Of a stretch of 53,387 bases of DNA, positions 15,875-42,562 are shown piece after piece (position 1 is the stretch's first letter; every line of letters begins with the position of its first letter). The stretch is from contig WQXJ01000011.1 of the NCBI GenBank assembly GCA_009784895.1, forward strand, positions 1-53,387, in the 5' to 3' direction. The notes below the pieces were generated by a model. That model was given only the letters and a program-made list of their open reading frames with translations. It was not told where the DNA came from and searched no databases. The stretch comes from Micrococcales bacterium. Lineage in GTDB: Bacteria; Actinomycetota; Actinomycetes; Actinomycetales; WQXJ01. Both the position numbers and the translations under genes were made by a program.

Positions 15875-16741
15875 TTAGACCGGCCTTTCGGGCCACTTGG
15901 CGCCGGCTCCGCCCAGCTCGGCTTGCAGGTTTTCGATACGCCCTAACAGGGCGGCTAGTGAGGGCCCGGCTGAGGCGATAGCGCGCGATGCCGGCGCCAC
16001 CACCTGGGCATACGCCTCACCAAAGACTCCTGCCAGGTCATCGGGGCTGGCTCCTTGAGCGCCTAGACCCGGCGCCAGGATGGGCCCACCGAGTTCCCGC
16101 ACCAGTTTGGCTGTGGCTTCATCGAGTGCTCCAAGAGTCGCCCCGATGACAACACCGACCGAACCGGGGCCGTTTTGGCCGCGATTGGCCCGGCCGGCCG
16201 CTGTTAGCACCGCCTGGGCCACAGTCAGCCCGTCGGCCCGCCGGGCCTGCTGGACCGCCGCACCATCCGGGTTAGAGGTTAGGGCTAGTACAAATACGCC
16301 TTGCCCGGCCCCCTGGGCCAACGCGATGGCCCGCTCAAGCGAGCCAAAACCCAGGTAAGGCGACAACGTCACGGCGTCGGCCGGCATCGGCGCGGCCGGT
16401 CCAAAATAGGTCGCGGCGTAACCGTCCATGGTCGAGCCAATATCGCCCCGTTTGACGTCCAGAATCGAGATCACCCCGGCTTGGCGGCAGGCAGCCAAGA
16501 CCCGTTCGAGCACAGCCACACCGGCCGCGCCATGCCGTTCAAAGAAAGCGGCCTGCACTTTGACCAGCGGCGCCGGCCCAGCCGCGGCCTCAATCAAGCG
16601 CCCGGAGTAGGTTTCCAGGCTGGCCGGTGTGTCTTCGAGGCCCCAGGCCGCCAAAGCCGCCGCCGAAGGGTCAATCCCGACACACAGGTGGCCAAAGCCA
16701 TCGAGCACGCCGGCCAGGCGTGCCCCGAACCCCTCGTTCAC
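15875..16741 (-). CDS. pyrF: Orotidine 5'-phosphate decarboxylase
   Basis: Decarboxylates OMP to UMP, the last step of de novo UMP synthesis. The catalytic motif is [17 protein letters not shown], with the Asp-Lys-Asp arrangement of the longer actinobacterial type; CVGIDPS near the N-terminus and the C-terminal [10 protein letters not shown] phosphate-binding segment are also present. I choose the GTG at 16741, which overlaps the carB stop (GTGA) and gives 288 residues; a start at 16768 would lie inside carB. Co-transcribed with carB. Confidence 0.95.
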
Positions 16742-19700
16742 GCCCCGACCTGCTGTAGAGGGCTGCATTCGAAGGCGCCTTGGCGCTGGGCCTCAATCGC
16801 CTGGACGGCCGCAGCCAACTGTTGGGTGGTGGTGACGATTGGCCGGTCCATCGAGGTGATGGCGGCCCTGATTTCGTAACCATCCGCCCTGGCCCCGGCG
16901 CCGGAGGGAGTGTTGACCACCATGTCTATGGCGCCTTTCAGGATCAGATCAACCACAGTGGGCTCGCCGTTTGGCCCTGGGCCTTCGCTGGCTTTGCGCA
17001 CCGGGCGGCAGGGGATCGAGTTGCGTCGCAGCACCGAGGCCGTGCCTTCGGTCGCCAGCACCTCGAAACCCATTTCGACCAGGCGTTTGACCGGGAAGAT
17101 AAGCGACCGCTTGTCGCGGTCTGCGACCGAGACGAAAACTACGCCGCTGTCCGGCAATCCACCAAAGGCCGCTTTCTGGCTCTTGGCGAAGGCCCTGGGG
17201 AAGTCGCCGGCCCGGCCCATAACCTCGCCGGTTGAACGCATCTCTGGGCCCAGAACCGTGTCGACCGATTGGCCTTGTTCGGTGCGGAAGCGCGAGAAGG
17301 GCAGGACCGCTTCTTTGACGGCGAAGCCCTGGCCTTCGAGTTCCGCCATGTCCGATGCCGGCAAGACGCCTTGGGCCTTCAGCTCACCAATTGGGCTGCC
17401 GGCCATGATGAGACAGGCCGCTTTGGCCAGGGGCACGCCGGTGGCTTTGGCCACAAATGGCACCGTCCGGCTGGCCCGCGGGTTGGCTTCCAAGACGTAA
17501 AGGACATCACCCATTAGGGCGTATTGGATATTGATCAAGCCCTGGACGCCCACTCCCTTGGCAATGGCCTCGGTTGAGCTGCGAATGGTCTCGATATCGC
17601 GTTTGGACAGGGTCACCGGCGGCAGGACGCAGGCCGAATCGCCAGAGTGGATGCCGGCTTCTTCGATGTGTTCCATGACGCCGCCCAGGAACAGTTCCTG
17701 GCCGTCGTAAAGCGCGTCGACGTCAATTTCGATGGCGTCATCTAAGAACCGGTCGATTAGCACCGGCGCGTCGGCGTGTCCACCCACCGGCAGGGCTTTG
17801 GCCATGTAGTCATCGAGCTGGGTTTCGTCGTAGACGATCTCCATGCCCCTACCGCCTAAGACATAGCTGGGGCGAACCAACACTGGGAAGCCGATGCGTT
17901 GGGCCACCTCTTGGGCTTGACCCACGGTGAAGGCGGTGCCATAGGGCGGAGCCGGCAGCCCGGCACGGGCCAAGACCTGCCCAAACGCGCCGCGGTTTTC
18001 GGCCGCGTCGATGGCCTTGGGTGAGGTTCCCCAAATGGGCAGACCAGCTTCAGCTAAGCGATTGGCCAGCGACAGCGGCGTTTGGCCACCCAGTTGCACA
18101 ATGACACCGGCCACGGGTCCTGCTCGGCATTCAGATTCGTAGACCTCCATGACATCTTCGAAGGTCAGCGGCTCGAAGTAGAGCCTGTCTGAGATGTCGT
18201 AGTCGGTTGATACGGTTTCCGGGTTGCAGTTGATCATGACCGTCTCGTACTGCGGACGCAGGGCCAAGGCGGCATGGACACAGGAGTAGTCGAATTCGAT
18301 GCCCTGGCCAATCCGGTTGGGCCCGGAGCCCAGGATCAGCACGGCCGGTTTGGTGCGGGTTTCGACCTCGGTTTGCTCCTCGTAAGACGAATAGAGGTAG
18401 CGGGTGTGGGCTTGGAACTGACCAGAGCAGGTGTCAACCGTTTTGTAGGCCGGGCGCAGGTTGAAGGCGTGACGGATCTCGCGCACGGTCGCCTCGCCAA
18501 TCCGGCGAAGGGAGGCTATTTGGGCGTCTGAGAGCCCGTGGCGTTTGGCCTGCCTTAGAGTCTCAGGGTCGAGGGCCGGGCCTTGGGCCACTTGGGCAGC
18601 GGTTTCATTGATTAGACAGATCTGGTCTAAGAACCACGGGTCGATGTAGCTGGCCTGGAACAGCCGGTTTATGCCGTCGGTGCCCAGGGCCCTCAAGGCT
18701 TGCTGAACGTCGATAAGGCGATGGTCGGTGGGGGTGGCGGTTGACTCGATCAGGTCATCAAGCTCCTGGCCGCTTGGGGGTTGGCCGTCCCAGTGGAATT
18801 GGGTGCCGGTTTTGTCAATCGAGCGCATGGCCTTGCCCAGGGCCTCGGTGAAGGACCGGCCCAGCGACATCGCTTCGCCAACCGATTTCATGGTGGTGGT
18901 CAAGGTTGGGTCGGCCATGGGGAACTTCTCAAAAGCGAAGCGGGGCACTTTGACCACGATGTAGTCGACTGACGGGTCGAGGCTGGACGGGGTGGTCTCG
19001 GTGATGTCATTTGGGATCTCATCGAGGCAGTAACCAAGGGCCAGGCGGGCGGCGATTTTAGCAATGGGGAAGCCGGTCGCCTTCGAGGCCAAGGCGGACG
19101 ATCGCGACACTCTTGGGTTCATTTCAATAACGACAATGCGGCCGTTATGAGGGTGAATGGCGAACTGAATGTTGCAGCCACCGGTGTCGACGCCAACCTG
19201 GCGCAGCACACCGACGCCGATTTGACGAAGCTTTTGCAGCTCCTTGTCCGTCAGGGTCAAGGCTGGCGCAATGGCGATTGAATCCCCGGTGTGAACCCCC
19301 ATCGGGTCGACGTTCTCGATTGAGCAGACCACCACCACGTTGTCCTGGCAGTCGCGCACAATTTCCAGCTCGATCTCTTTCCAGCCAATGATGGATTCTT
19401 CGAGCAACACTTCACTGGTGGGCGAATAGTGCAGCCCGGCCCCGGCAATCCGTTCTAGGTCTTCGCGGTTGTAGGCGATACCGCTGCCCAGGCCGCCCAT
19501 GGTGAAAGACGGGCGGATGACAACCGGATAACCCAAGTCCTCAACTGCCCTTTGGCAGTCCTCCATTGAGTAGGCCATATGCGACTTTGGCACCTGGGCG
19601 CCAACCTGTTCGACCACCTGTTTGAACTGTTGGCGGTCCTCTCCGGAGGTAATGGCCTCGACTCGGGCGCCAATCAGTTCAACGTTGTACTTCTCCAGGA

Positions 19701-20019
19701 CGCCGGCTTTGGCCAAGGCGACCGCGGCGTTGAGACCGGTTTGGCCACCTAGTGTGGGCAGGATGGCGTCCGGGCGTTCTTTGGCGATGATCGTGGTCAG
19801 GGCCTCAAGGGTGATTGGCTCAACGTAGGTGGCGTCGGCAAACTCCGGATCGGTCATGATGGTGGCCGGGTTGGAGTTGACCAAGATCACCCGGATGCCC
19901 TCGTCTTGCAGCACACGGCAAGCTTGGGTGCCGGAGTAGTCGAATTCGCAGGCCTGGCCAATCACAATGGGGCCAGAACCAATCACCAAGACAGAGGTGA
20001 TGTCGGCACGTTTGGGCAT
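16738..20019 (-). CDS. carB: Carbamoyl phosphate synthase large subunit
   Basis: Makes carbamoyl phosphate from bicarbonate, ammonia and two ATP for both pyrimidine and arginine synthesis. The 1093-residue product is full length, with two homologous ATP-grasp halves: [21 protein letters not shown] at the start and the second-half counterpart [20 protein letters not shown]. The C-terminal allosteric domain is present ([19 protein letters not shown]). The ATG at 20019 has an AAGGAG ribosome binding site; an upstream in-frame start at 20097 runs through the leader RNA. Normally carA precedes it, but here the divergent surface-protein genes do. A PyrR-type element precedes the start. Confidence 0.97.
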
Positions 20020-20026
20020 GGGCTTC

Positions 20027-20058
20027 TCCTTCCCCGCCTCACAGGACGGGATTAAAGG
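20027..20058 (-). promoter_or_regulatory. PyrR-binding RNA element upstream of carB
   Basis: The minus-strand leader contains AATCCCGTCC-TGTGAGG-CGGG, a short stem (CCCG/CGGG) displaying the TGTGAGG loop typical of PyrR sites, running into the AAGGAG ribosome binding site of carB. It closely matches the element before pyrR at 42532-42562. This arrangement is known from mycobacterial pyr leaders, where PyrR bound with UMP blocks translation initiation. Confidence 0.7.
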
Positions 20059-20347
20059 CTGGACGCTTCGCCCGGCTAGCCTACCGGCACCGAGCAACGG
20101 CCTGGCGTTGCGGTCGCGGCCGGTTGCTCATCAGCCCGGGACCGGCCCGTCCTTGGTCAGCCCGCCTGTCTAGATACGGCATAATGGAACCAGTCCACAA
20201 CTAAACGCCCCAGAGTTCTGCCGCTCAACCCCGCCAACATACATATCCAGCCCATACGCCATGACACGTGAAGCCCTCATGGTGAGTCGGTTCGAGGTCG
20301 CCCTAGGTGAGCGGCCCCGAACCGCGGTAGGAAGGTGAACCCTCGAA
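20059..20347. other. Divergent intergenic region between carB and the first surface gene
   Basis: It should hold promoters for carB (minus) and the first surface protein gene (plus). On the plus strand a CATAAT hexamer near 20181 is -10-like but lacks a good -35 box, and GGTTCG/CGAACC arms around 20289-20322 could form a hairpin in the 5' untranslated region. I found no remnant of the carA glutaminase domain on either strand. Confidence 0.4.
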
Positions 20348-23300
20348 ATGGCTACAACTCGATTTGGATCCGTCAACAATCCAAAGCGATGGATCGCGGC
20401 CACGGCCTTGGCCGGCCTGGTCTTCGCAGGGTTGGCCACGAGCGCGGCGCAAGCCAACCCGCCGCCTGAGGATGTCACCGCTACGCCGGTGTTGCATAAG
20501 AACACCTCAGATAGCCAGGTCGTACCCGGCCAGTCGTTCACCTACACCATCACCATTGGTTGTTCATCTATTACCGACCGGGGTTGCCGCGACGCGGTTT
20601 TGACTGACGTAGTGCCGGCGCCATTTGTGGTAACTGGCGCGGTGGCGTTGGGTGGAACCAACTCGGGCGATGCCACTTACGCCGGCAACATTGTGACAGT
20701 GGTGTGGACCACCCCCCTGGGCGATGGCACCATTGGCATGCTTGATAACACCACCTCGACAGTGCAGATCACGGCCGAGCTGCCACTCGACGCCTCCTAC
20801 GACTTCAATGGCAGGCCTGTCCTAAACGATGCTGTTATGACTGGCTCCAACTTCGACGATGTCCACGACCAGGTGGCAGTTACCCCCTTGATTCCAAAGG
20901 TGCTGGAGACCACACCAACCAAGACTCTCGACCCGCCAACCCTGGTAGCGCTCCTTGATGAAGCGGTTACGGCCGTGCTAGCAGGCACCAACAACTCCAA
21001 TGGTTCAGTTGAATCTTTGGCTATCCAAGACCCGGTCGACCCGACGGCTACGCCCAATCCCTTCGAATACTTGGAGTTCCAGAGTTTTGGCTCGGTTGTT
21101 CCACCAGCCGGGGCTGATCCAGGCCAAACCACCTACGAGGTCTACGTCGACACCGGCGGTGGGGTTTACGACTGGGTCGACGCCCCCGGCGGCGTGTTAC
21201 CAGCTGGGGTCACCGGCGATATGGTGCGTGGCACCCGCGTCACCTTCTACGGCCTTATCCCGCCAGGAGAGACCGGCACGGTCGAGTTGAACTTGGCTTT
21301 GACGGCCGATGGCGTGGCTCTGGGCGATGGCGCGTTGATCGACAATTCGGTGTTGTCAGAGGTAACGCTCGGTGGCGACAGCGCCACCGGCACGGCCAAC
21401 GACTCGCTGGTGCTGCGCGACAACCAAGTTTGGGTCGGCGCCACCAAAGAGTTCAACCCCTATTGGGTCCTGGCAGGCGATTCGAGCACAGTCACCCTGG
21501 GCGCCTCGAACCAGTCAAGTATTCAGATCACCACGTTGACCATCACTGAACCGTCAAGTGGCACCTTCCCAACTGAGTACACCTTTGGCGGCTTCACCGC
21601 CGGTATTAGATACCCGGCTGGCGCACTTTCGGGGGTTGTGACGGTGTGGATTGGCACCACTCCATATCCAGTGCCGTTTGGTGACGGTGACACTCCGGAC
21701 ATCGCCACTGAGATTGCTCCGGCCCTGCTCTCAGAGGTCGAGTGGTTTGAGGTTACTTTCACCGGGGACATCTTGGCGGGCGGTGACACCGAGATTGTCT
21801 TTGACGTGATTACTGATCCGACCACACCGGGCGTGACCCCGCTGACCAACGAAGTTGGAGTTCACGGCGACAACGGCAGCGCCAGCGATGATGCCACGGC
21901 CCAAGATGACCTCTACATCTACGACGAGGTGATTGAGCCCTACGTCAACAAGTCAGTTCGTCCCACGCCGATTCTGGGTGTGCCCGGCCAGTACGTCACC
22001 GTTTCGCTTGAGGGCGGCCTAACCGATTGGCCCGACCCGCCCACCACTATGACCGGCTCTACCGGCAGCGCCAACCAGATTGTGATCCAAGATCCCCAAG
22101 ATCCGGTTGAGCCAAACGACTGGTGGAACGCCTTTGACCTCTACGCCGTCAGCCAGACACCCATCCCGGCCTGCGCCGAGCTGACCGTTGAGGTCTACGA
22201 CACCACCACCAGCGCTTGGGTTTGGTGGTTTGGCCCAATCCTGGGCGGAACGATCTATTCTGAGGTCTTCCCCGGGCCGCAAGCCACGACCGGTGGCATC
22301 CGGTTCATTTATGACTACGTCGACACACCGCCTTGCCCGGCTGGAGGTTTCCCACCCGGTACCGACTTGGCGCCGAACTTCGTCAGCCAGCTGCGCGATG
22401 ATGGCCGCTACAACCCCGGCCCACCTTTCAGCGACACCAGCTCGACTTTTGTGCCGAACTGCGCCCAAACCGACGCGACCAGCCCCAACGACCCCATCGT
22501 CAGCCCTGGCCAAGCCACCATGCCCCCGGGCACCTGCCCAGAAATTGAGATCCTGCCAGTCCAGCCCGGCCAGGGCCAGGACATGATCGACAAGAGCTTT
22601 GGCCAGTCCAGTTCCGGTGGCATCAAAAGCGTCATTGCCCGCTCGGGTGACACCATTCCTTCGGTGCTGTCCTGGTCCACTGGCGGCTATTCCAACCTGG
22701 ACAGCGTTGAGATCACCGACATCATTGACCCGGCCGGCACCGCCTTGGCCGATTCGATTTTTGACGCCTTCGACCTGCACACCATCCAGGCCATTACCCC
22801 GGCCACTGACCCGCTAATCGCCTACGACCAAGTCCAAGCGGTCTACCTTTACAACCGCACCACCTCGACCTGGGAGCCCGCTGCTAACAGCCCCTGCCCG
22901 GCCGGTTGTGATGGCCAAATGCCAGCCATTACTCTCACCGCCGCCGAGATGGAGACAACCATTGGCGTCCAGTTGGTGATCATCGAAAGCCCAAACCGGG
23001 ATACCGCCTTGCAGGCCAACCCGGCCGGCCCACCGGTTGGTTCCGGCGTGGCCAGTTCCTTTGGCTACTCCCGTCCCATCACACTGGTGTGGCAGGTGCG
23101 TGATAACAGGCGGTCAGACTTCTCACCGGTTTTGGGTGACGAGTGGTACAACCTGCCAGATGAGGGCGATGTACTCAACACTGTGGGCATTACCGGCTAC
23201 CTCCCAGATGGTTCTACCCAGGAAGACACGGCTTCAGATGATGTGCTGATTATCGATGTGCCACTGACCACTATCACCAACAAGACCTGGTCCGGCGGAC

Positions 23301-26300
23301 CGATAGCGGTCCCAGATAGCCCATCTGGACTGACGCCAGATCAATTCCCGGTTTCCCGTATCACCGTGACCACCCGTAACACCACTCCGGCCCGGGTTGA
23401 CCAGTTGGTAATCACTGACCCGGCACCTGGGGCAGTGGCACCGGATACCGATGCTTTTAACGCCTTTGACCTGATCAGTATTGTCTCCATTACGCCGCCA
23501 GCCGGAGCCGACCCGGCCAATACCGTGGTGACGCTGTACTGCACCGGTGGAGCTGAATATGACTTCGACACAACTACGGCTCTGGCCCTGACCTTTACCA
23601 CTATGCCCTGTGCTGATGTGATTGGCATCCAGGTCAGCTTTGACGGACGGATTGCCTCGGGCGGGATTGGCGAAATCGTCTTCGATATGCGGCTGCGCGC
23701 GATCTACCGTGACACCGGCGGCCAGGTCTCGGCCGCAGACGGGCCGCTGTTCAACCGAGCCGAAGGTGTCATTGCCGATGTCGATTCGCCAGGACCGTGC
23801 CCGCCGCCGCCTGGCGCCCGCTACGAATGCGACCAGGCTTCGACCAATATTCCACTGGCCAACCCAAGCTTTGGCGTGGTGGCATCAAAGACAATCAGCC
23901 CCTCCCAGCAGTATGAAGGTGACTACGCGCCGGTCACCGTCACCCTGGGCGGCCAACCGACCGGCTCAGCCCGGGCCTGGACCATGGTGCTGGCCGATGA
24001 CGACCCGGCCTTTTGGAACGCCTTTGACTTTGTTGGTATGGACCCTTCTTGGGCCTTTGCCCCACCCACCGGCCGGGTGCAGGTTTGTTACTACTGGGAC
24101 GGAGACTTCAGCCCAGCCAACGTCGCCGCCGGTGCCAGCGCCGTCGGCGGCACCGAGGTCTGCCAACAATTAGCCCAAATTGGCGACATCGCCATGGCTG
24201 TGTCCTGGCTGACTGCTCAGATGGCCACCCTACCGGCCGATGCCATCCACGGCCTCCAGTTTGAGTTCTGGACGGCCGATGGCTCCGGCTGGGCCAACCC
24301 ATCCAACCCGGTAGTGACGGTGCCTTTTGTAGTTGAACGCCGCGTCACAATGCGCACCGGCGACCCCACGCCAACCACTCGATCTGACCAAACGGCCGCC
24401 CCCGGTCAAGACCAGGCCGGCATCTTCGTTGACGATATGACTGTTGATGCCGAGTCAGTGATCGTTTCCGGTGGCCAGAGATTGCTGGCGGACGATGCCG
24501 CCAACGCCCAGTACCGCCACCTGCACGACACCGTGGCCCTTTCGGTGGTCAAACAACCCCAAGGCGCCGTGCCGCCAGGCAAGGTCATTCCATTTACGCT
24601 GACTTTCACCAACACCGGCATGCTGCCGCTAGTGGATCCAATCTTTTCTGACCGCTTGCCCACTGACGGCACAGGGCCGCAGCTGATCTTTGACCCAGAT
24701 GCCGACCCGACTGTGCCGCCCTGGTCCTTTGCTTTGGCCGGTGCGGCCCCCTCGCCGCCCAATGGCCTGCCGCTACCAACCAGTCCGAATGACGTGACGG
24801 TCGACCAAACCTCAGTCCCCAACGTGATCTACTTCCACATGCCGCCGGGATCGGTGCTGGAACCCGGTCAGACTTACACCATCACCATCAACTTGATGCT
24901 ACGCCCCGGGCTGGAAACAACCGATCAGGCGCAAAACTGGGCCGCCATCGACATTGGCGGGCTGCCGCTTGACTCCTGTGTTTCAACCGAAGACCCCATC
25001 ACCCATGAATGCATGGATGATTCGACCGTCTGGCCAATGGCCGCCCCGGCGCTCAGCACTATCAAATACGTCAAGGGAGATGTCCTGCCCAGCCTGGCCG
25101 CGCCCCTTTCCGGCGTGCCGGACGTTGTCAGTTCGATCAACAACTACGACTGCACCGGCCAGGCCACACCGGACGGCTTCTACCGCGCCCCGTGTATCCC
25201 GGTGACACTGCCAGGTGACACCGAGACTTGGCGCTTTAGTATTACCAACGCCGGTACTATCCCGCTGACAGAGCTGGTGTCCATCGACAACCTGCCCACG
25301 CCGGGCGACCAAGGTCTAATTGTCATTCTGCCGCGGCAAAGCGCCTGGCAGCCGACCTATGCCGACTGGTTCGACAAAACCGGACTGCCAGCTGGGGCCA
25401 CTTTCGATGTCTACACCTCACCGTTGTCTTTGCCCTGCACGGCCGATCTAGACCCACAAGGTGTCCCTTGCGCGTTGGCGGATTGGACCGAATGGGACCT
25501 GACTCCAGACCCAACCGCCGTGCGCAGTTTGAAATTCGTGATCAAGTTTCCCCCTGGTGAGGAGTTCAAACCGGGTGACACACTGTCGATCGAATTCAAA
25601 ACCGCCACCACACCGAACCGACTCAACGCCGCCAACTACCCCGTCGCCTGGAATACCGTCGCCACCGGCGGCCTGGCCGACGATGCCGGCACCAAACTCA
25701 CAGTGCCGGCCACCGAAGGCCGGCGGGTTGGCGTGACCTACGCCACCGGGCCCATCTTGCTAAAGAAAATCGTCACCGGTCCGGCCGCCTCACTAGCCCC
25801 ACTCAATTTCCCGGTCCAACTAGTCTGCACCGTCGCTGGCGTACCAATGAGCGGCCTGCCCATCATCACTCTGGTGGCCAACGGGCCAGAGGTCAGGTTA
25901 GATGGGCTGCCAGTTGGCGCCGAATGCACCGCCACCGAGCAATGGTGGGGACAAACCAGTCACCAAATTGGTACCGCCACCGTGGGCGGTCCGCTTGACC
26001 CAATTGGCCTGATCACCGTCACAAACGATTTCCAAACGGCCAGCCTGCAGATTCGCAAACAGGTTGACACCCCGGCCCTGGACGCCAACGGCGACCCGGT
26101 TGTCTACGGTCCATTCAGCTTTGCTGTCTCCTGCACCTACTTGGGCAGCCCGGTTTACGCTGACGGCTACGACTTAACCCATCCGATGGAAGAAGATCTC
26201 TGGGACGGCAACACCTGGTCGCTGGCAGGCGAAACGCCCACGGGCACCCCGCTGATGCCCACCGGCACCGAGTGCACCGTTACCGAGACGAACAGCGCCG

Positions 26301-27520
26301 GTGCCCTCGACACCGAAATGGTTGTGACCGACGCCCAAGGCAACCAGACCACGGTGCCCGGCAACCAGGCCACCGTCACCATCGATGACCTATTCACAGT
26401 CGAGGTGTTGGGCATTAACACCTTTGGCGCCGGCTCACTTGAGCTACTCAAGACCGTCACCGGCCCGGCCGCCGGGCAATTTGGTAATGGGCCATTTGTT
26501 TTCAATGTGCTTTGCACGCTTGACACTGGTTCAGGACCGGCGACGGTTTTTGACGGCGACGTCACCCTGACCGGCCCCAACAATCTCTCAGCCACCATTG
26601 ATTTCATTGCCGATGGCGCCGACTGCGACATTACCGAGGTCAACACTGGTGGAGCCACCAGCACCGTGATCACTCCGACCACTGTGACGATCGGAAACAC
26701 GACCACGGTCACGGTCGACATCACCAACACCTTCAACGCCGCCGATTTGACCGTGCATAAGGCCGTCACCGGTGCCGGCGCCAGTCTGTGGGGCGCCGGC
26801 CCGTTTGAGGTCACGCTCGACTGCCTAGACGCCAACGGCAATTCCGTTGCCTTGCCTGGTGGTGCCACACGTATCCTGTCGAACCAAAACAGCTTCACGG
26901 CCGCTTATTCGCCTCTACTTCACGGCCTGGTTTGTACGCTGACCGAAACAGGCACAGGCGGCGCCACCAGTTACACCGTGACCGATTCGACTGGCCAAGT
27001 GGTGACCGATTTCACAATTGTGCAAAACCAAGACGTCGAACTGTGGGTCACCAACACCTTCGACCTGGGCACCATCACCGTGCAAAAGACCGTCAGCGGC
27101 ACCCGGGCAGCCTCACTAACCAACGCCAGCTTCATGGTCTGGCTTGACTGCCAGCTGCAGGGACGGGCCATTGCCATCCCCGGCGGTGCCGCCCGCCAGC
27201 TCAAAGCCGGCGCGCAGGTGGTTTACCAGGATTTGCCGGTTGGGGCCCAGTGCACTGTGACCGAAACAGACAGGGGCGGAGCCAGGACGTCAACTGTCAC
27301 CTACGTCGGAACGAACCAGCCCTTCGCTACCGTTGCAGCCAACAGCACCGCCCTCGTCACAGTCAACAATGACTTTGCCAACCTGGCCTTTACCGGCTCA
27401 GATTGGCTCAACCTACTGATCTGGGCTTTTGCCGGCATCGGCGGAGGCCTGGCCATACGACACAGGCGCCAGCCCACTGGTCAACGCCCCGGGCGCCGCC
27501 TGGCCAAACACCGGGCCTAG
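20348..27520 (+). CDS. Giant sortase-anchored surface protein with DUF11-like and five DUF5979-like domains
   Basis: A 2390-residue secreted wall protein of unknown ligand, probably an adhesin or part of the cell envelope. The N-terminus has Arg/Lys residues, a hydrophobic stretch and AAQA-N, a likely signal peptidase site near residue 36. Residues about 40-1800 are beta-rich repeats of the DUF11 class, with a recurring module marked by (N/D)AFD(L/F) at about 22.13, 22.77, 23.46 and 24.02 kb. From about 25.74 kb five tandem DUF5979-like domains follow, each starting like (L/V)xK-VTG and ending TET/TEx-GG-T. The C-terminus is LAFTG, a membrane helix and a basic tail, a sortase sorting signal of the LAXTG type. 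An AGGAAGGTGA ribosome binding site precedes the ATG. No sortase gene is in the window. Confidence 0.85.
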   Translation: MATTRFGSVNNPKRWIAATALAGLVFAGLATSAAQANPPPEDVTATPVLHKNTSDSQVVPGQSFTYTITIGCSSITDRGCRDAVLTDVVPAPFVVTGAVALGGTNSGDATYAGNIVTVVWTTPLGDGTIGMLDNTTSTVQITAELPLDASYDFNGRPVLNDAVMTGSNFDDVHDQVAVTPLIPKVLETTPTKTLDPPTLVALLDEAVTAVLAGTNNSNGSVESLAIQDPVDPTATPNPFEYLEFQSFGSVVPPAGADPGQTTYEVYVDTGGGVYDWVDAPGGVLPAGVTGDMVRGTRVTFYGLIPPGETGTVELNLALTADGVALGDGALIDNSVLSEVTLGGDSATGTANDSLVLRDNQVWVGATKEFNPYWVLAGDSSTVTLGASNQSSIQITTLTITEPSSGTFPTEYTFGGFTAGIRYPAGALSGVVTVWIGTTPYPVPFGDGDTPDIATEIAPALLSEVEWFEVTFTGDILAGGDTEIVFDVITDPTTPGVTPLTNEVGVHGDNGSASDDATAQDDLYIYDEVIEPYVNKSVRPTPILGVPGQYVTVSLEGGLTDWPDPPTTMTGSTGSANQIVIQDPQDPVEPNDWWNAFDLYAVSQTPIPACAELTVEVYDTTTSAWVWWFGPILGGTIYSEVFPGPQATTGGIRFIYDYVDTPPCPAGGFPPGTDLAPNFVSQLRDDGRYNPGPPFSDTSSTFVPNCAQTDATSPNDPIVSPGQATMPPGTCPEIEILPVQPGQGQDMIDKSFGQSSSGGIKSVIARSGDTIPSVLSWSTGGYSNLDSVEITDIIDPAGTALADSIFDAFDLHTIQAITPATDPLIAYDQVQAVYLYNRTTSTWEPAANSPCPAGCDGQMPAITLTAAEMETTIGVQLVIIESPNRDTALQANPAGPPVGSGVASSFGYSRPITLVWQVRDNRRSDFSPVLGDEWYNLPDEGDVLNTVGITGYLPDGSTQEDTASDDVLIIDVPLTTITNKTWSGGPIAVPDSPSGLTPDQFPVSRITVTTRNTTPARVDQLVITDPAPGAVAPDTDAFNAFDLISIVSITPPAGADPANTVVTLYCTGGAEYDFDTTTALALTFTTMPCADVIGIQVSFDGRIASGGIGEIVFDMRLRAIYRDTGGQVSAADGPLFNRAEGVIADVDSPGPCPPPPGARYECDQASTNIPLANPSFGVVASKTISPSQQYEGDYAPVTVTLGGQPTGSARAWTMVLADDDPAFWNAFDFVGMDPSWAFAPPTGRVQVCYYWDGDFSPANVAAGASAVGGTEVCQQLAQIGDIAMAVSWLTAQMATLPADAIHGLQFEFWTADGSGWANPSNPVVTVPFVVERRVTMRTGDPTPTTRSDQTAAPGQDQAGIFVDDMTVDAESVIVSGGQRLLADDAANAQYRHLHDTVALSVVKQPQGAVPPGKVIPFTLTFTNTGMLPLVDPIFSDRLPTDGTGPQLIFDPDADPTVPPWSFALAGAAPSPPNGLPLPTSPNDVTVDQTSVPNVIYFHMPPGSVLEPGQTYTITINLMLRPGLETTDQAQNWAAIDIGGLPLDSCVSTEDPITHECMDDSTVWPMAAPALSTIKYVKGDVLPSLAAPLSGVPDVVSSINNYDCTGQATPDGFYRAPCIPVTLPGDTETWRFSITNAGTIPLTELVSIDNLPTPGDQGLIVILPRQSAWQPTYADWFDKTGLPAGATFDVYTSPLSLPCTADLDPQGVPCALADWTEWDLTPDPTAVRSLKFVIKFPPGEEFKPGDTLSIEFKTATTPNRLNAANYPVAWNTVATGGLADDAGTKLTVPATEGRRVGVTYATGPILLKKIVTGPAASLAPLNFPVQLVCTVAGVPMSGLPIITLVANGPEVRLDGLPVGAECTATEQWWGQTSHQIGTATVGGPLDPIGLITVTNDFQTASLQIRKQVDTPALDANGDPVVYGPFSFAVSCTYLGSPVYADGYDLTHPMEEDLWDGNTWSLAGETPTGTPLMPTGTECTVTETNSAGALDTEMVVTDAQGNQTTVPGNQATVTIDDLFTVEVLGINTFGAGSLELLKTVTGPAAGQFGNGPFVFNVLCTLDTGSGPATVFDGDVTLTGPNNLSATIDFIADGADCDITEVNTGGATSTVITPTTVTIGNTTTVTVDITNTFNAADLTVHKAVTGAGASLWGAGPFEVTLDCLDANGNSVALPGGATRILSNQNSFTAAYSPLLHGLVCTLTETGTGGATSYTVTDSTGQVVTDFTIVQNQDVELWVTNTFDLGTITVQKTVSGTRAASLTNASFMVWLDCQLQGRAIAIPGGAARQLKAGAQVVYQDLPVGAQCTVTETDRGGARTSTVTYVGTNQPFATVAANSTALVTVNNDFANLAFTGSDWLNLLIWAFAGIGGGLAIRHRRQPTGQRPGRRLAKHRA

Positions 27521-27823
27521 CGCCACCTGCCCCCAACGGGTAGAGCCCAGATTCAACCAGCTCCGCCCGGCGCCCTAGACCGGACTGTCCGTTTGGTCAA
27601 AAGCCAGGCGCGGTTTGAACCACGCCCACGCCGCGCCAACGCCGGTGCCAGCCTGGCTGATGGCCACGCCCTCAGGGCGCCTGCGCCGCGCCAGCCTGCA
27701 ATGGCGGTAGGTTAGGGCGCATAGGCTTGGAAATGCGGTAGCCAAGCTGGGCCCTGCCGTGACACGACGCTTCCCCTTCGGTTGGGTGGACCTAGTCACC
27801 ACCGGCACCGCCAGGAGGACACC
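27521..27823 (+). other. Intergenic region between surface genes 1 and 2
   Basis: No credible gene. It has an imperfect hairpin GGCGCGGTTTGAACCACGCC at 27607-27626 (a weak terminator candidate) and TAGGTT/TAGGCT hexamers near 27712-27730 that could be -10 boxes for the second gene. A minus-strand open frame across the region has no ribosome binding site or recognisable content. Confidence 0.4.
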
Positions 27824-30800
27824 ATGACGACCCCAACGTGGCGTAAGGGCTCAAGGACGCTGGGCGCAGCGGCCGTAGCAGCACTGATTCTGACCGGGTT
27901 GACCGCCTTACCCCCAGCCCAAGCCGCCATGCCGGTGCCTTTTGCCCAACGCTTCCAGGTCAACGCCAACGGCGCCATCACCACCTTTGGTAATGCCTTG
28001 TTGACCTGCCAGGCGGCTACGGCCTGCACCACAGCCCAAAACGGGACCACGGCCAACAACAACGACTACACCATGGTCAACATCGATGCCGATACGGACC
28101 CGAGTACCTTCAACTCCTCTGCCTCCAATCTGTCGCTGCCGGCCGGATCAACCGTGCTTTGGGCCGGGCTGTATTGGGGGGCCCGGCTGACAGCCGGTAC
28201 CAGTGGTGCCGCCGGCACCGGTACCCGTACCCAGATGAGGTTGCAAGTGCCAGGCGGTAGTTACCAGACCATCACATCAGCCCAGGAGTTTGGCCCCGAC
28301 TCGACCCAGTCCAACGCCTATCAAGAGTTTGCCGACATCACCACCCTGGTCCAAAACGCCGGCTCCGGCACTTATTGGGGCGCCAATGTGGTGGCAGGCA
28401 CCGGCAAAGACCGCTACGCCGGTTGGTCCATCACGGTGGTTTACTCCGCGCCGGGTATGCCGCTGCGCAACTTGACGGTTTTTGACGGTTTCCAACTGGT
28501 CCAAAGCGGCAAGTCGGTTAGCGTCACCGTCTCGGGCTTCTTGGCACCAACGTCTCCCCCAGTTACGGCCGGGTTGAACATGATGGTCTACGAGGGCGAT
28601 GCTGGCCTGACCGGGGATAACGTCACGCTCAACGGCGCCCAGCTGGCCACGGCCGTCTCCCAAGGCACCAACTTCTTCAACTCCAGTGCTGATGACAACG
28701 GCAGCCTTGTGACCAGCCGCACACCGGCCTACCGCAATATGCTGGGCTTCGACATCAAAGCCCTGACCACCACTAACGTCTTGCCGCCGGGTAACGGCGT
28801 GACGCCAGGCTCGGCCACCTTCGCTTTCAACACTTCTTCTGACACTTACTTCCCCGGCATGGTGGCCTTGGCAGTTGACCTTTACGCCCCGGATTTCAGC
28901 GCCTCGACCAAGTCGGTGGTCAACTTGGGCGGCCACGACCCGGCCAAACCGGGTGACACGCTCGAATACAACGTCACCATTGTCAACTCCGGCCAGGACA
29001 ACGCCGTCAACTCGGTTGTGACTGATTCCTTGCCGCCAAACGTCACCTATGTGCCTGGGTCAATGGAGTTAGTTACCCAGATCGTTGGGGGGACTTCAGT
29101 CATTCTGCCCCAGGCGCTGACAGACGCGGCCGATGCCGATGTGGGGCGTTACGATGCCGCGGCCCGTCGGGTGGTTATCAACGTTGGCCAAGGCGCTACT
29201 AACGCGGCTGGGGGCGAGATTCCGATTGGCCAGCAGGTCTCTTTCAAGTTCCGGGTGACCTTGGATAGTCCCGATTCGGCTGGCACAACTGTGACCAACC
29301 AGGCTGATTTGGCCTACACCGCCAAGGTTTCGCAGGTTTCTTCGAACTACACCACCCCGCCGGTCTCAGTGGTGGTAGCCGAGGAAGCCGATGTTCAGCT
29401 GACCAAGTCCATGTCACCCAACCCGGTCAACGCCGGTGGCACCGTCACCGCCACCCTGCATGTGTTCAATGCTGGGCCTTCGCCGGCCACCGGTGTTTCG
29501 GTGACGGACTCGATGCCGGCCGGTGTCACGGTCACGGCCGTTGATATGTCCATTCCTCCCGGTAACTGCCCTTTGCCCACCGGCCCTGGCCAGCCCTTCA
29601 CCTGCCTGGTTGGGGATATGGCCGTGGGCGATACCGTCACTATCACAGTCACCGGTACGGCGGCAGCCAATTTGGCTCCTGGCCAGCTGGTCAACGTGGC
29701 CACTGCCACCGCCACGACGGCGGACCCGGACTTGTCCAATAACACCGCCGCCGCCACCATTGTCTCTAGGGTCAGCGCCGATGTCGCCATCGCCAAAACC
29801 ACATCGAATTTCGATCCCAAGCCGGGCGAGCTGGTCACTTTCACTTTGACTGCCACCAATCACGGGCCGTCTGATGCCACCAATGTCGTCATTTCTGACG
29901 CCGTCATCACGTCGAGTTACCTCTCCCTGGTGGCGGTTGATCCACTGGCCTCTGGGGCGGTGTGTACCCTGGGCCCGGTTGTGACCCAATGCACTTTGGC
30001 CACCCTGCCAGCTGGTGAGACGGTCGCCGTTGAGGTGACCGGTTGGGTCTCGCCCAGTGCGCCGGCCGGCAGCCCGCTGAGAAACGTCGGCACTGTCACC
30101 GCCGCCACACCCGATCCGGTGATTTCGAACAACCTGTCAACAATTGACATGACTGTGGGCTCACCGGAAGCTGATTTGTCGATTGCCAAGACCGGGCCGG
30201 CCAGCGCTATGCCCGGCGGCACCATCACCTACACCTTGACCGTAACCAACCAAGGTCCCTCGGCTTCCACTGATGCCACTGTCGAAGACATCCTGCCGGC
30301 GGGCCTGACGGCCATCTCCGCCACGTCAACCCAGGGCAGTTGCACCATCTCAAGTGCTGCGGGCATCGACACCGTCACCTGCGACATCGGCCCCATGGCC
30401 GGACCCTCCGCCCCAACCCTGCCCGGTCAGGTGACTGACCCAAGTACCTTGGCCACGGCCACTATCACCATCGTGGCCCGGATCGATCCGGCGCTGACCG
30501 GCTCGCTCAGCAACACCGCCAGCGTCGACGGACCCGAGGACCCGGATGGTGGCAACAACACCACTCCGCCGGTTGTGACTCCGCTGGCCCCACAAGCCAA
30601 TCTGGCCATCACCAAGACTGCCAACCGCACCACTCTTCCCGGCGCTGGTGACGGCGTCACTTACACCGTGACACTGCGCAACCGCGGTCCCTCGGTCAGC
30701 CACGAAGTTGTTATCACCGACCAGCTGCCGGCCGCCTTCGACTTTGACAGCGCCGCCTGGACACTGACCGGCCCTTCGGCCGACGCTGGCGGCTGTTTGC

Positions 30801-33775
30801 CCCTCGGCCCGGTTGTAGGTAGCCACCAACCACTTACCTGCGAAGTGCCGGATATGCCCATTTGGAACCCGTCCGCGCCAGGTGACAACGTTTTGACTCT
30901 GGTGGTGGCGATGACGGCGCCAGCGGGTTACAGCCCGCCGGCCGGCACCACCGAAACCGAAATCGCCTCGGTGCTCGCCATCACGCCAGATCCGATCATG
31001 GTCAACAATGAAGCCACTTGGACCCTGCAAGACACCGCCCAGGTTGACTTAGAGGTCGTCAAGTCCTCCAGTGGCAACCCGGTGGCCGGTGGGCAGGTCA
31101 CCTACACCATCACCGCCAACAACCTCTCGGCGCTCGATAGTGCCGCCGATGTCGAGCTGTCCGACACCTTGCCAGCTGGAGTCACCTTCGACTCGGCTAC
31201 CCCGGCCGGCCAGTGCAGCGCCACCGGTCAGCTAGTGACCTGCACTCCGGCAGGCGGCAGCCTCGCCGCCGGGGGCATCGCTAGCTTCCAGATCCTGGTA
31301 GACATCGACCCCAGCCTGGCTGACGGCACCATGCTTACCAACACAGTCACAGTGACCAGCAGTACACCGGATCCGATCTTGGACAATAACACCGCTTCGG
31401 TGACGGACCCGGTCGCCGCCCAGGTCGACATCCTGGTCGACGCCCTGAACCTGGCCGATGCCGGCGCCGGGGCCTACAACGGCCCGGGTTCGATCCGGAC
31501 TCAGACCTTCACCGTGACCAACGACGGCCCATCGGTGGCCCGGGCTGTCCAGTTCACCGCCCGCCTGGCGGTTGATGCCACGGTTGATGTGGCCGGGCTG
31601 GTTGGCACTATGCCCGGTTGCACCATCAGGGCCCGGTCGATTACCTGCTTGGTTGATAACGGCACCGATGGCAGCTCAGACCTGCAACTCAACCAATCCG
31701 TCGCCGTCACCATCCCGTGGACCTTGGCCTCCAATGTCACCCCTGGCAGCTACTTGGCCGATGGCCTGGTCGGCTGGCCCTACGGCGCCAATGTGACGGT
31801 TTCAACCAGCACCACCGAAACCGACCTGACCAACAACTACCAAGAGGTTGACCTGATCGTTGACCCGGCCCAGACCGATATAGAGCTGACCAAAACCGCC
31901 CTGACCACCACCACTAACCCGGTAGACGGTGACCCCGCCTTCGTGGCTGGTTCGACCTTCACCTACCAACTGACCGCCCAGGTCCTGCCGGGCGCCGCCC
32001 GGGCGGAGAACGTCCAGCTGACCGACACCATGCCTGCCGGCTTTGAGGCCACGGCCGTTGGAACCACTGTTGGTACCTGCCAGGTTGATCCTGGTGGTGG
32101 CTCGATCAGTTGTGACCTGGGCACCATAGAGGGCTTCGATCTGGTGGGCCCGCCGGTGGTGCTGATTACCGTTAGCGGCACCATTGACCCGGCCGCCTTC
32201 TCCGATGGCAGCGGCAGCGAGGTCCAGTACACCAACACCGCTCAGCTAACCTCCAGCACCGACGGCCTAGGCACCAATCCCCTGGCGCCCTTTAGCACAA
32301 CGGCCCAAACCACGGTGGACGTGGTGCGGCAAACCAATTTGTCCATCACCAAGGCGGCTAGTTCGCCCACTTTCACCGCCGGTGGCATAGCCCGTTGGAC
32401 CATTACCGTGGTCAACTCCGGCCCGTCTGATTTGCCGGCCGGCGCCACCATTACTGACACCCTGCAAGCCGGTTTGACCTTCAGCTCGGCCGGCTCCGAT
32501 CCATCGTGTTCAGCCGCAGGTCAGGACGTCACCTGCACGCCTCTGCCTGCCATCGCGGTTGGTGAAGCCGTCAGTTTGCAGCTGGCCGCCCAGATTCCGG
32601 CCGACATCCTAACGACTGATTTGGCCAACCCACCGGTCTTACCTGTTGTTGACGAGGTGACCAACCAAGCCACCATAGACGCACCAAGCCTGCCAGGCCC
32701 GGTGACCAGCCCGCCGGTCGTAACCCCAATCGTGGCCCAAGTTGATGTGGCCATTGCCGGCACCGTCACCCAACAGGTGGTGCCAGCTGGCTCGACCTTG
32801 GTCTACACCATCACCGGGGTCAATAACGGCCCCTCTGCCGCCCGCGATCCGCAGTCCGGTGTCAACTTCCCGCCGGAGTTCCAGATCGATTCGGTGGCTG
32901 TCCCGGCAGATCTGATCCAATGCGCCACCAATCCGACCATTCCTTTCGAAATCGACTGCACCACCATTCCATCTGGTCCAGGCGGCCCCATCGCCTTGCC
33001 CGGCATCTCTGCCACAGGCGTGGTCCAGGTGACCGTGCCAGCCAACACCGCACCTGGGGTCTACCAGGTCCTTGCCCACAATATGATCTTCGACGTTGAC
33101 GGCAACCCGCCGGACTTCAACCCCAGCAACAACATCGCCCGCATCAACGTCCTGGTCATCCCGGTAGCCGACGTTGCCGTCCAAAAAACCACTGTGACCA
33201 ATCCGGTAAAGGCCGGCCAGCCAGTGACCTATGCGCTTGACGTGACAAATTTTGGGCCCTCTGATACCACCGAAGTCCAGTTAGTCGACCAGGTACCGGG
33301 CAAGGCCACCTTCGCCTCGGCCCAGTATTCCGGTGGCGGGGCGGTGGCCTGCACGCCTGGCCCGGCCAGCGAGGACCAGCCGTCCATCACCTGCGAGCTA
33401 GGCGACCTGGCGGTGGGCCAAACCAAGACGGTGCTGGTCACCTTCAACACACCCGCGACGCTGAGCGGCAACCTGACCAACGCTGCGGTAGTCGGTTCAG
33501 TCGCCCAAGACCCGGTGGCAGCCAATAACCAGGCCAGTGTGGCTAACCCGGTGGTGGTAAGCCCGGGTCCCGGCCCCGGCCCTGGTCCAGGCCCCGGCCC
33601 CGGTCCTGGTCCTGGTGGCAGCGGAGCCGGCGGCCGGTTGCCGTGGACCGGCACGGACACGCTCAACCTGCTGGTTTGGGCTCTACTCGCGATTGCCGGT
33701 GGCCTGGCCTTGCGCCGCCTGCGCCACCACGCCAGCGTCAGCCCACGCTATTTGGCCAAACACCTCGCCACCTGA
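27824..33775 (+). CDS. LPXTG-anchored DUF11-repeat surface protein (longer paralogue)
   Basis: A 1983-residue secreted wall-anchored protein. The signal peptide covers residues 1-34 (basic WRKGSR, hydrophobic core, PAQA-A). A roughly 320-residue N-terminal domain contains VLWAGLYWGARL and a DRYAGW segment. Then come about eleven DUF11-like beta-sandwich modules, each recognised by a start such as ADVQLTKS or ADLSIAKTG and the core YTxTVxNxGPS...DxLPAG. A Gly-Pro repeat linker precedes LPWTG, a membrane helix and a basic tail. The ATG at 27824 with GAGGACACC before it matches the start region of the next gene. Such proteins are usually adhesins or stalk-like surface structures; the binding partner is unknown. 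Confidence 0.87.
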   Translation: MTTPTWRKGSRTLGAAAVAALILTGLTALPPAQAAMPVPFAQRFQVNANGAITTFGNALLTCQAATACTTAQNGTTANNNDYTMVNIDADTDPSTFNSSASNLSLPAGSTVLWAGLYWGARLTAGTSGAAGTGTRTQMRLQVPGGSYQTITSAQEFGPDSTQSNAYQEFADITTLVQNAGSGTYWGANVVAGTGKDRYAGWSITVVYSAPGMPLRNLTVFDGFQLVQSGKSVSVTVSGFLAPTSPPVTAGLNMMVYEGDAGLTGDNVTLNGAQLATAVSQGTNFFNSSADDNGSLVTSRTPAYRNMLGFDIKALTTTNVLPPGNGVTPGSATFAFNTSSDTYFPGMVALAVDLYAPDFSASTKSVVNLGGHDPAKPGDTLEYNVTIVNSGQDNAVNSVVTDSLPPNVTYVPGSMELVTQIVGGTSVILPQALTDAADADVGRYDAAARRVVINVGQGATNAAGGEIPIGQQVSFKFRVTLDSPDSAGTTVTNQADLAYTAKVSQVSSNYTTPPVSVVVAEEADVQLTKSMSPNPVNAGGTVTATLHVFNAGPSPATGVSVTDSMPAGVTVTAVDMSIPPGNCPLPTGPGQPFTCLVGDMAVGDTVTITVTGTAAANLAPGQLVNVATATATTADPDLSNNTAAATIVSRVSADVAIAKTTSNFDPKPGELVTFTLTATNHGPSDATNVVISDAVITSSYLSLVAVDPLASGAVCTLGPVVTQCTLATLPAGETVAVEVTGWVSPSAPAGSPLRNVGTVTAATPDPVISNNLSTIDMTVGSPEADLSIAKTGPASAMPGGTITYTLTVTNQGPSASTDATVEDILPAGLTAISATSTQGSCTISSAAGIDTVTCDIGPMAGPSAPTLPGQVTDPSTLATATITIVARIDPALTGSLSNTASVDGPEDPDGGNNTTPPVVTPLAPQANLAITKTANRTTLPGAGDGVTYTVTLRNRGPSVSHEVVITDQLPAAFDFDSAAWTLTGPSADAGGCLPLGPVVGSHQPLTCEVPDMPIWNPSAPGDNVLTLVVAMTAPAGYSPPAGTTETEIASVLAITPDPIMVNNEATWTLQDTAQVDLEVVKSSSGNPVAGGQVTYTITANNLSALDSAADVELSDTLPAGVTFDSATPAGQCSATGQLVTCTPAGGSLAAGGIASFQILVDIDPSLADGTMLTNTVTVTSSTPDPILDNNTASVTDPVAAQVDILVDALNLADAGAGAYNGPGSIRTQTFTVTNDGPSVARAVQFTARLAVDATVDVAGLVGTMPGCTIRARSITCLVDNGTDGSSDLQLNQSVAVTIPWTLASNVTPGSYLADGLVGWPYGANVTVSTSTTETDLTNNYQEVDLIVDPAQTDIELTKTALTTTTNPVDGDPAFVAGSTFTYQLTAQVLPGAARAENVQLTDTMPAGFEATAVGTTVGTCQVDPGGGSISCDLGTIEGFDLVGPPVVLITVSGTIDPAAFSDGSGSEVQYTNTAQLTSSTDGLGTNPLAPFSTTAQTTVDVVRQTNLSITKAASSPTFTAGGIARWTITVVNSGPSDLPAGATITDTLQAGLTFSSAGSDPSCSAAGQDVTCTPLPAIAVGEAVSLQLAAQIPADILTTDLANPPVLPVVDEVTNQATIDAPSLPGPVTSPPVVTPIVAQVDVAIAGTVTQQVVPAGSTLVYTITGVNNGPSAARDPQSGVNFPPEFQIDSVAVPADLIQCATNPTIPFEIDCTTIPSGPGGPIALPGISATGVVQVTVPANTAPGVYQVLAHNMIFDVDGNPPDFNPSNNIARINVLVIPVADVAVQKTTVTNPVKAGQPVTYALDVTNFGPSDTTEVQLVDQVPGKATFASAQYSGGGAVACTPGPASEDQPSITCELGDLAVGQTKTVLVTFNTPATLSGNLTNAAVVGSVAQDPVAANNQASVANPVVVSPGPGPGPGPGPGPGPGPGGSGAGGRLPWTGTDTLNLLVWALLAIAGGLALRRLRHHASVSPRYLAKHLAT
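33562..33617 (+). repeat. GC-rich hexamer repeat coding a Gly-Pro linker
   Basis: Roughly nine degenerate GGYCCY hexamers encode alternating Gly and Pro just before the LPWTG signal of the longer paralogue. The repeat probably spans the peptidoglycan as a stiff linker and could change length by slippage. The shorter paralogue has a different Gly/Pro/Asn-rich linker without perfect repeats. Confidence 0.85.
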
Positions 33776-34027
33776 CAAGGCAGTCAATCCATCTAGCCGG
33801 CCCAATACGGCTCGCCGGCCGTGAGGCGCTGGACTTGAGCCGGGCAGACCAGCCGGCTTGGGCAACGGCCCGCGGCCTGACCGCCTCACCCAGAGCCCTG
33901 ACACTAGCGCCGTTGGCACCACTATTTGGACGTTTTGGCCCGGCCGCCTGAGGCCGAGCCTGGGCCATGTGACAATCCCCGCAACGGTCGGCAATTGACT
34001 GCCTGGCCGCGAGGCGAGGAGGACACA

Positions 34028-39232: not shown

Positions 39233-39712
39233 CTACGGCGCGGCTTGAACGATCGCTAGCAGCTCCTCGACTGGCCGGGCCCGGCCCTGGGCATCAACTA
39301 ACCCCGATCCGGAGAAAATCCCGGCCCGCGTGGCCCCGCGCCCACGCAAATGCAGCGTCACCGCCCGGGTGTCAACCCCGGCCAGGCCAACCACACCTTG
39401 GGCCACCAGATCGCCTTCGAGCGAACGCTGCCCGCGCCAATTGGACCAGCGCCGGGCCGGATCGCGCAGCACCAGGCCGGCCACTTCGATCCGGTCTGAC
39501 TGGCCGTCCTCATCGTTTAGCCCAACTACGCCAATATGCACTGCCGTCATCACCATGATTTGGCCGCGATTGGCCGGATCGGTCAGAATCTCCTGGTAGC
39601 CAGTCATAGCGGTGTTGAAAACGACCTGCCCAAGGCACTGGCCGGTGGCACCGTAGGGGTGGCCGGAAAAGGTGGTGCCATCGGCCAACACCAGCAGGCC
39701 CTGGGCGCTCAT
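39233..39712 (-). CDS. carA: Truncated carbamoyl phosphate synthase small subunit (N-terminal domain only)
   Basis: The 159-residue product matches only the CarA N-terminal domain: LVLADGTTFSG, GQVVFNTAMTGYQEILTDP and VAGVDTRAVTLHLR-like segments are clear (the text reads GLAGVDTRA). It stops at the point that corresponds to about residue 151 of a 380-residue CarA. The glutaminase domain, with its GICLGHQ nucleophile cysteine and C-terminal His-Glu pair, is missing. Other frames downstream do not continue CarA. The start overlaps pyrC (ATGA) as in an intact operon. The enzyme could at best support subunit contact; ammonia-dependent synthesis by CarB, or a second carA elsewhere, would be needed. 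Confidence 0.9.
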   Translation of the reverse strand: MSAQGLLVLADGTTFSGHPYGATGQCLGQVVFNTAMTGYQEILTDPANRGQIMVMTAVHIGVVGLNDEDGQSDRIEVAGLVLRDPARRWSNWRGQRSLEGDLVAQGVVGLAGVDTRAVTLHLRGRGATRAGIFSGSGLVDAQGRARPVEELLAIVQAAP

Positions 39713-41001
39713 CTAACAACCTTTCCGTCCAGCACGGTGGCACGGCCGCGCAGGAATGTCGCCTCGGTCCGCCCGTGCATTTCGCGGCCGGCCACCGGCG
39801 TGTTGCCCGATGCCGAAACCTGCCTTGCCGCGTCGACCGGCCAGGTTTTGTTGGGGTCAAAGAGGGTCAAATTGGCAACTTCGCCCACTTCAATAGGGCG
39901 GCCTTGGTCATTTAGGCGGCCAATTAGGGCCGGTTTGCTTGACAGCACCTGGGCTACCCCAGCCCAGTCCATCCGGCCCATCTCAACCATCAGCTGGTTG
40001 ACAATGGGTAAGGCGGTCTCCAACCCGGTCATGCCAAAAGCCGCCGCCGCCCATTCGCAGTCTTTTGACTGGAGCGGATGCGGGGCGTGGTCGGTGGCGA
40101 CAATGTCAATAGTGCCGTCGGCCAAGGCTGAGCGTACCGCTGCCACATCATCACTTGAGCGCAGCGGCGGGTTGACCTTGAAAATCGGGTCGTAGCCGCG
40201 CACCGCCTCGTCGCTGAGCAGCAGGTGGTGCGGCGTGACCTCGGCCGTGACGTTGACCCCGCGGGCCTTGGCCCAGCGGATGATCTCAACCGATCCGGCG
40301 GTCGAGACATGACAAATATGCAACCTTGAGCCGACGTGTTCAGCTAGCAGCACATCGCGGGCAATTATGGCTTCTTCGGCCACGGCCGGCCAGCCGGCCA
40401 GGCCCAGTTCGGCCGAGACCACGCCCTCATGCATTTGGGAGTTCTCAGTTAGCCGCGGCTCTTGGGCGTGCTGGGCAATAACCCCGTCGATGGCCTTGAC
40501 ATACTCCAAGGCTCGGCGCATCAAAACTGGGTCGGCCACGCAATGGCCGTCATCGGAAAAGACCCGCACCCTAGCGGCACTGCGGGCCATGGCGGCCAGC
40601 TCGGCCAAACGTTCGCCCTGCAAACCCACTGAAACCGCCCCAACCGGGTGGACATCAACGTAGCCGGCCTCTTCTCCTAGGCGTTTGACCTGCTCAACCA
40701 CCCCGGCCGTATCAGCCACTGGATGGGTGTTGGCCATGGCGTGAACAGCTGTAAACCCACCGGCCGCCGCCGCCTGGGTGCCGGTCAGAACCGTCTCGGC
40801 GTCCTCGCCGCCGGGCTGTCGCAGGTGGGTATGCAGGTCGACCAAACCTGGCAGCAGGACTAGGCCGTCGGCATTTATCGACTTGATGCCCTTGCCCGGT
40901 GAGGCATCCTCACCAAGGGCGGCGATCACGCCATCGGCCAACAAAACCTGGTCCGTCTGGCCGTTCGGTAGGCGTGCGTCCCTAATCAGATACTTCGTCA
41001 T
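39709..41001 (-). CDS. pyrC: Dihydroorotase
   Basis: Cyclises carbamoyl aspartate to dihydroorotate. The 430-residue product is a type I (PyrC/allantoinase-like) amidohydrolase: the metal-binding motif is [12 protein letters not shown] near residue 56, with further metal-ligand segments around [10 protein letters not shown] and [24 protein letters not shown] is also typical. Start and stop both overlap neighbours by 4 nt (pyrB stop, carA start), showing tight operon coupling. Confidence 0.97.
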
Positions 41002-42531: not shown

Positions 42532-42562
42532 CCTTTCCCGCCTCGCTGGACGGGACTTAAAG
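42532..42562 (-). promoter_or_regulatory. PyrR-binding RNA element upstream of pyrR
   Basis: The minus-strand leader reads AAGTCCCGTCC-AGCGAGG-CGGG and then AAAGGAGG, the pyrR ribosome binding site. The CCCG/CGGG stem and purine-rich GAGG loop fit the PyrR consensus, and the overlap with the ribosome binding site fits control at translation, as described for mycobacteria. Confidence 0.72.

Follow-up and report, generated by a model that had tools for sequence, protein, structure and literature searches.

Organization of the pyr genes

The window (the whole stretch of DNA analysed, 53,387 nt) carries two pyr units on the minus strand, each headed by a hairpin of an identical type (Table 1). 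On this strand, pyrR, pyrB, pyrC and a shortened carA are followed, beyond three plus-strand genes, by carB and pyrF. The start of pyrR was taken to be the GTG at 42517, which comes after AAAGGAGG (the ORF list has 42529). The probable GTG start of pyrF overlaps the carB stop in the sequence GTGA, as read from the DNA and its translation, which makes translational coupling of pyrF to carB likely and would allow a single hairpin to control both genes.

The three intervening genes encode large surface proteins with DUF5979/DUF11 repeats and a hydrophobic stretch near the C-terminus. They carry the motif LAFTG in the first and LPWTG in the second and third. The C-termini of the latter two (within 27782-39181, plus strand) are nearly identical (GRLPWTG.DTLNLLVWALLAI.GGLALRRLR..AS.SPRYLAKHLAT), the result of a recent duplication or exchange.

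Table 1. Features of the two pyr units and of the region between them (window coordinates)
Feature	Position	Strand	Evidence
PyrR-binding hairpin (predicted), carB leader	20028..20058	-	R1 44.1 bits, E 1.6e-7; RF00515 positions 5-36 of 115, 29.5 bits
PyrR-binding hairpin (predicted), pyrR leader	42532..42563	-	R1 36.3 bits, E 7.8e-6; RF00515 32.9 bits
carB Shine-Dalgarno AAGGAG	20026..20031	-	sequence read against the Rfam and R1 structures; 6 nt before ATG
TAGGCT, -10-like hexamer of putative carB promoter	20078..20083	-	TAGGNT in the same zone of 11/15 carB leaders
carB, carbamoyl-phosphate synthase large subunit	16738..20019	-	NF003671 1545.7 bits, TIGR01369 1357.6 bits
pyrF, probable GTG start	15875..16741	-	TIGR02127 251.8 bits on the longer ORF 15875-16768
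pyrR	41957..42517	-	NF003547 261.7 bits, cut-off 230
pyrB	40998..41960	-	NF002032 388.4 bits
pyrC	39709..41001	-	NF006836 720.9 bits
carA, N-terminal domain only, 159 aa, without glutaminase domain	39233..39712	-	PF00988 1-126/126; TIGR01368 to position 132 of 361
three large surface-protein genes between carA and carB	20348..39181	+	20348-27520, 27782-33775, 33926-39181

CarA without a glutaminase domain

The CarA protein of the window includes a complete PF00988 domain and nothing after it. Among the six class-I glutaminase-domain matches and three CarA-model matches of the genome there is no CarA glutaminase. A full-length CarA is present in 13 of the 17 other genomes of the family; the CarA match is cut by a contig end or shortened in two more (G004, G017) and there is no clear match in the last two (G006, G014). 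A CarA limited to the N-terminal domain is also found in an unrelated genus of the same order (g8, family f3), in 7 of 9 genomes, none of the nine having a CarA match over the family cut-off. In all seven its gene lies directly upstream of carB. Together these loci (Table 1 for the window; L117 and L250-L256) suggest a carbamoyl-phosphate synthase using free ammonia that would have arisen at least twice. A search of the literature by titles and abstracts retrieved none on glutaminase-less CarA in bacteria. In the CarB tree described below the branch of the window is long, at 0.29 compared with 0.095 in the near relative G003; a long branch (0.48) also leads to G019, the other genome in the tree with a glutaminase-less CarA.

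A PyrR-type hairpin overlaps the carB Shine-Dalgarno sequence

On the minus strand the carB leader (20058-20017) reads CCTTTAATCCCGTCCTGTGAGGCGGGGAAGGAGAAGCCC-ATG and the pyrR leader (42563-42532) reads CCTTTAAGTCCCGTCCAGCGAGGCGGGAAAGG. The CCCG/CGGG stem that the first-pass annotation had described as common to the two leaders is indeed seen in both. The carB hairpin includes a lower stem CCUUU/GAAGG, an upper stem CCGUC/GGCGG and a CUGUGA loop, and lies 9 nt from the start codon. It overlaps the Shine-Dalgarno sequence, whose AAGG forms the 3′ side of the lower stem (CCUU/AAGG). The same annotation had a GAGG loop merging into the ribosome binding site: the overlap is present and involves the lower stem, not the loop. 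The Rfam structure has CnGnGA as its loop and assigns the next GG to the 3′ stem.

RF00515 was the best match when each leader was searched alone (scores in Table 1). Neither leader reached the gathering score of 54 and the whole window gave no match at gathering. Since the RF00515 matches stay below this score and that of carB ends at model position 36 of 115, we built a covariance model, R1, from 11 pyrR leaders belonging to other families of the order and including no member of the window's family. The first MAFFT alignments (A1, A2) put the 5′ stem in the wrong place because the length of the bulge varies, and an alignment (A3) of 11 leaders with alignable bulges was used instead; those leaders whose spacer is 2 nt long, and also L039, were excluded before pairs were counted. 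In the 11 leaders 115 of 115 cells are paired, against 59 to 75% of cells for slid structures, and compensatory changes occur in 2 pairs against 0.2 in shuffles.

R1 recovers both leaders of the window, the next match scoring 9.1 bits, and in the whole genome (2.36 Mb in 111 contigs) it finds two matches only, one before pyrR and one before carB. The carB leader carries all of the R1 features: CCUUUAA, the upper stem, the CnGnGA loop and the lower stem. The element before carB, a suggestion of the earlier reading, is real, in that a model made from the pyrR leaders of other families finds it together with its counterpart at pyrR. PyrR itself is encoded in the same genome, with a score above the cut-off of the model. 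PyrR and this form of the element are not always found together, since three genomes (G022, G040 and G052) have a PyrR match and gave no R1 element.

Two simpler types of evidence were rejected. The bare core GTCCNGNGAGGC is too common in the window to stand alone: with up to one mismatch it is found 12 times, against 8.2 expected by shuffling, and a third exact copy (45686-45697) is present without a stem. Folding energy alone does not single out the hairpin, the thermodynamic z-scores (-0.42 for the carB leader and -1.75 for the pyrR leader) not being exceptional. The stem of the carB element is nearly invariant within the family and covariation at carB itself is thin for this reason. The argument for the carB element comes from the element as a whole, where it lies and how well it is conserved.

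Distribution of the element within the family

The family set includes 18 genomes, that of the window among them, and the start of carB is readable in 15 (all except G002, G006 and G017). In these 18 genomes R1 gave 31 matches, 17 before pyrR and 14 before carB, and none elsewhere. Fourteen of the 15 genomes with a readable carB start carry the element there. The exception is G001, in which carA adjoins carB on a single contig, with 105 nt between the carA stop and the carB ATG and no carB element. None of the 14 element-bearing genomes has carA next to carB on its upstream side: the two are on different contigs or separated by several kb, or the readable sequence upstream of carB contains other genes. 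Little sequence can be read upstream of carB in three of them, about 60 nt in G005, about 1 kb in G015 and 1.5 kb in G016; the carA of G005 has more than 4 kb downstream without carB, and carA was not found in the search of the G014 genome. All 14 conserve the complete 31-nt element at carB, with its CCTTTAA and its invariant loop, and the layout of hairpin and start codon is alike in all of them.

In a CarB tree (quick IQ-TREE) the family forms a single clade (SH-aLRT 99) with G001, its earliest branch, outside the other 16 members (SH-aLRT 96). A single separation of carA from carB and a single acquisition of the element, both placed on one branch, explain the pattern. The split had been proposed not to be a random recent break, and it is old: it is common to 14 of the 15 readable genomes, together with the element.

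Homogenisation of the carB and pyrR elements within genomes of the family was tested and found no support, the mean difference being 2.33 within and 2.52 between genomes (n=12). In G003 carA and carB are separated by an opposite-strand gene for a large zinc-ribbon protein (L100:6302-10687), and a related gene, with about 50% identity over roughly 190-216 aa, is found upstream of carB in G009, G010 and G014. It may mark the original insertion. The idea that the insert of the window is this same gene was dropped, as no match was found in the window or the genome (in a genome search run without a positive control).

Comparison outside the family

At 30 of 30 loci outside the family no element was found in the 200 nt upstream of carB; at these loci carA and carB are neighbours. 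A larger sample of 149 genomes of the order was scanned with R1. Among the 139 from outside the family, 120 have exactly one element, 19 have none and none has two, while 8 of the 10 family members have two at an E-value of 0.01; the second element of G009 is at E 0.0103 and the carB start of G002 is unassembled. The undivided relatives, whose carB leaders the first-pass annotation had wished to see compared, therefore carry no element at carB, either at the 30 outside loci or in G001, and this comparison, which could have refuted that annotation, favours it. It had left a choice between PyrR control kept or gained by carB-pyrF after the split. As none of the 139 outside genomes has a second element, we prefer a gain of the hairpin, and of the PyrR control that we infer from it, after the split. 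Within the family a single gain would have occurred, on the branch following G001, where carA and carB also ceased to be neighbours.

The motif followed by a carB start occurs in only one of 394 genomes of the class, that of the window. A motif scan of GTDB species contigs returned 63 stretches, 49 of which are not carB and 14 of which have a carB start after the motif. Eleven of these 14 (10 named Bifidobacteriaceae bacterium and one Micrococcales bacterium) match the family of the window, and the three others are from Knoellia remsis, Segniliparus rugosus and Marinicaulis flavus. The motif of M. flavus (L184) has no stem and was taken as a chance occurrence.

In K. remsis the end of carA and the start of carB are 4.3 kb apart and a hairpin precedes carB. 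Both elements of this species show the stem in the form CCUG/CAGG, so that both sides of the stem are changed at another address. In S. rugosus carA and carB are 4.8 kb apart and the hairpin precedes a duplicated part of the 5′ end of carB; the two leaders have 90% identity over 49 nt, a stretch that extends upstream of the hairpin. The carA-carB split and the carB hairpin are thus paired in three cases, the family of the window, K. remsis and S. rugosus, and the element was probably gained independently in the last two. S. rugosus is the weaker of these two independent cases outside the family. At its locus (L201:9423-9680) the out-of-frame partial duplicate (46 nt, 98% identical) stands between the carB leader and the real carB, an arrangement that resembles the outcome of a copying event bringing in the leader along with the beginning of carB. 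The duplicate may be a trace of assembly or of rearrangement.

These distributions also bear on whether the hairpin is a relic, or plain Shine-Dalgarno context, outside PyrR control. Such a reading would sit well with a core 12-mer that is not rare in a GC-rich window and with the weak folding z-scores, but an unselected relic should decay, and here 14 of 15 family genomes retain the whole element, while no locus at which carA and carB are seen adjacent has it. We consider it very improbable.

A proposed second PyrR-responsive hairpin at carB

We propose instead, with a probability of roughly 85%, that the carB element is a second PyrR-responsive hairpin, restoring to carB-pyrF the same control as that of pyrR-pyrB-pyrC-carA. 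When UMP is plentiful, PyrR-UMP would grip the loop (GUCCnGnGAGGC) and hold the hairpin closed. The lower stem would then cover the carB Shine-Dalgarno sequence, ribosomes could not start, and both carB and the overlapping pyrF would remain untranslated. When UMP is low, the hairpin would open and both proteins would be made. Transcription could begin at a carB promoter of its own just upstream of the element. Such a promoter is suggested by a TAGGNT box: of the 15 carB leaders compared, 14 from the family and one from Knoellia, 11 have it 18-46 nt before the element, against a mean of 0.26 and a maximum of 3 in 2000 mononucleotide shuffles. Binding by PyrR, its dependence on UMP, the translational mode, use of the promoter and coupling of pyrF are all inferred, and repression of carB-pyrF by UMP-PyrR at the level of translation would be the best explanation: a known mechanism at an unusual address.

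Fields and Switzer reportedly described PyrR-dependent translational repression of the pyr operon of Mycobacterium smegmatis in 2007. In that operon the PyrR-type loop is said to lie directly over the ribosome-binding site, with no terminator, in an element located at the operon head. The carB leader is similar in having such a loop directly over the ribosome-binding site and no terminator, and differs in being a second element, before a detached carB. With RF00515, which represents the pyr attenuators of Firmicutes, the elements of the window share the loop, the lower CCUU/AAGG stem and the bulge. In contrast to RF00515, they are without the antiterminator and terminator halves and score under the gathering cut-off.

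The lactococcal carB has its own PyrR leader. The pyr genes of Lactococcus cremoris include the units pyrRPBcarA and a separate carB (PMC10986495). As in the window, the bacterium has PyrR control and a carB that is not next to carA. In Bacillus and lactococci PyrR acts by attenuation, whereas our reading for carB of the window is translational. An RNA regulon survey gives 211 pyrR motif sites obtained with RF00515 and, for actinobacterial groups, covers Corynebacteriaceae and Mycobacteriaceae. A literature search by titles and abstracts retrieved no paper about PyrR elements in front of a carB that has left its operon in actinomycetes.

Attenuation of transcription, the Bacillus mode in which PyrR binding lets a terminator form, would offer another way for the hairpin to act. 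The binding loop agrees with the 5′ portion of RF00515, whose full model includes both antiterminator and terminator, and this is the PyrR mode described for B. subtilis and Lactococcus. Nevertheless the carB match spans only the first third or so of that model (positions 5-36 of 115), and the start codon, 9 nt past the hairpin, leaves no room for a leader terminator; the same layout is found in all 14 family carB leaders. Because the terminator half is missing, the carB element is not of the Firmicutes attenuator type, and attenuation appears even slightly less probable than a relic. The short distance to the ATG makes the translational mode plausible. Finally, an artefact of a metagenome assembly in 111 contigs, in which carA is truncated at a junction with foreign genes, is extremely improbable, as a single contig contains the element together with carB and its start, and 13 other family genomes, assembled separately, have the same leader, which is also present, without its neighbours, in named isolates.

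Evolutionary implications

The second PyrR-responsive hairpin proposed here may belong to a wider pattern. In actinomycetes the pyr operon might repeatedly break between carA and carB, with carB then gaining a PyrR hairpin by copying of the pyrR leader, a repeatable regulatory repair. We put this generalization, drawn from the family of the window, K. remsis and S. rugosus, forward tentatively and regard it as possible rather than probable.

PyrR elements are worth seeking at detached pyr genes of actinomycetes, given that the Rfam model at its gathering score finds neither of the two in the window. The locus would provide a clear example of regulation that goes with a gene when it leaves its operon, with a before-state in G001, an after-state in 14 relatives and two independent repeats. 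Since the before-state, the after-state and the repeats can be compared, the co-regulation of the parts of a split operon becomes directly testable with a part of 31 nt.
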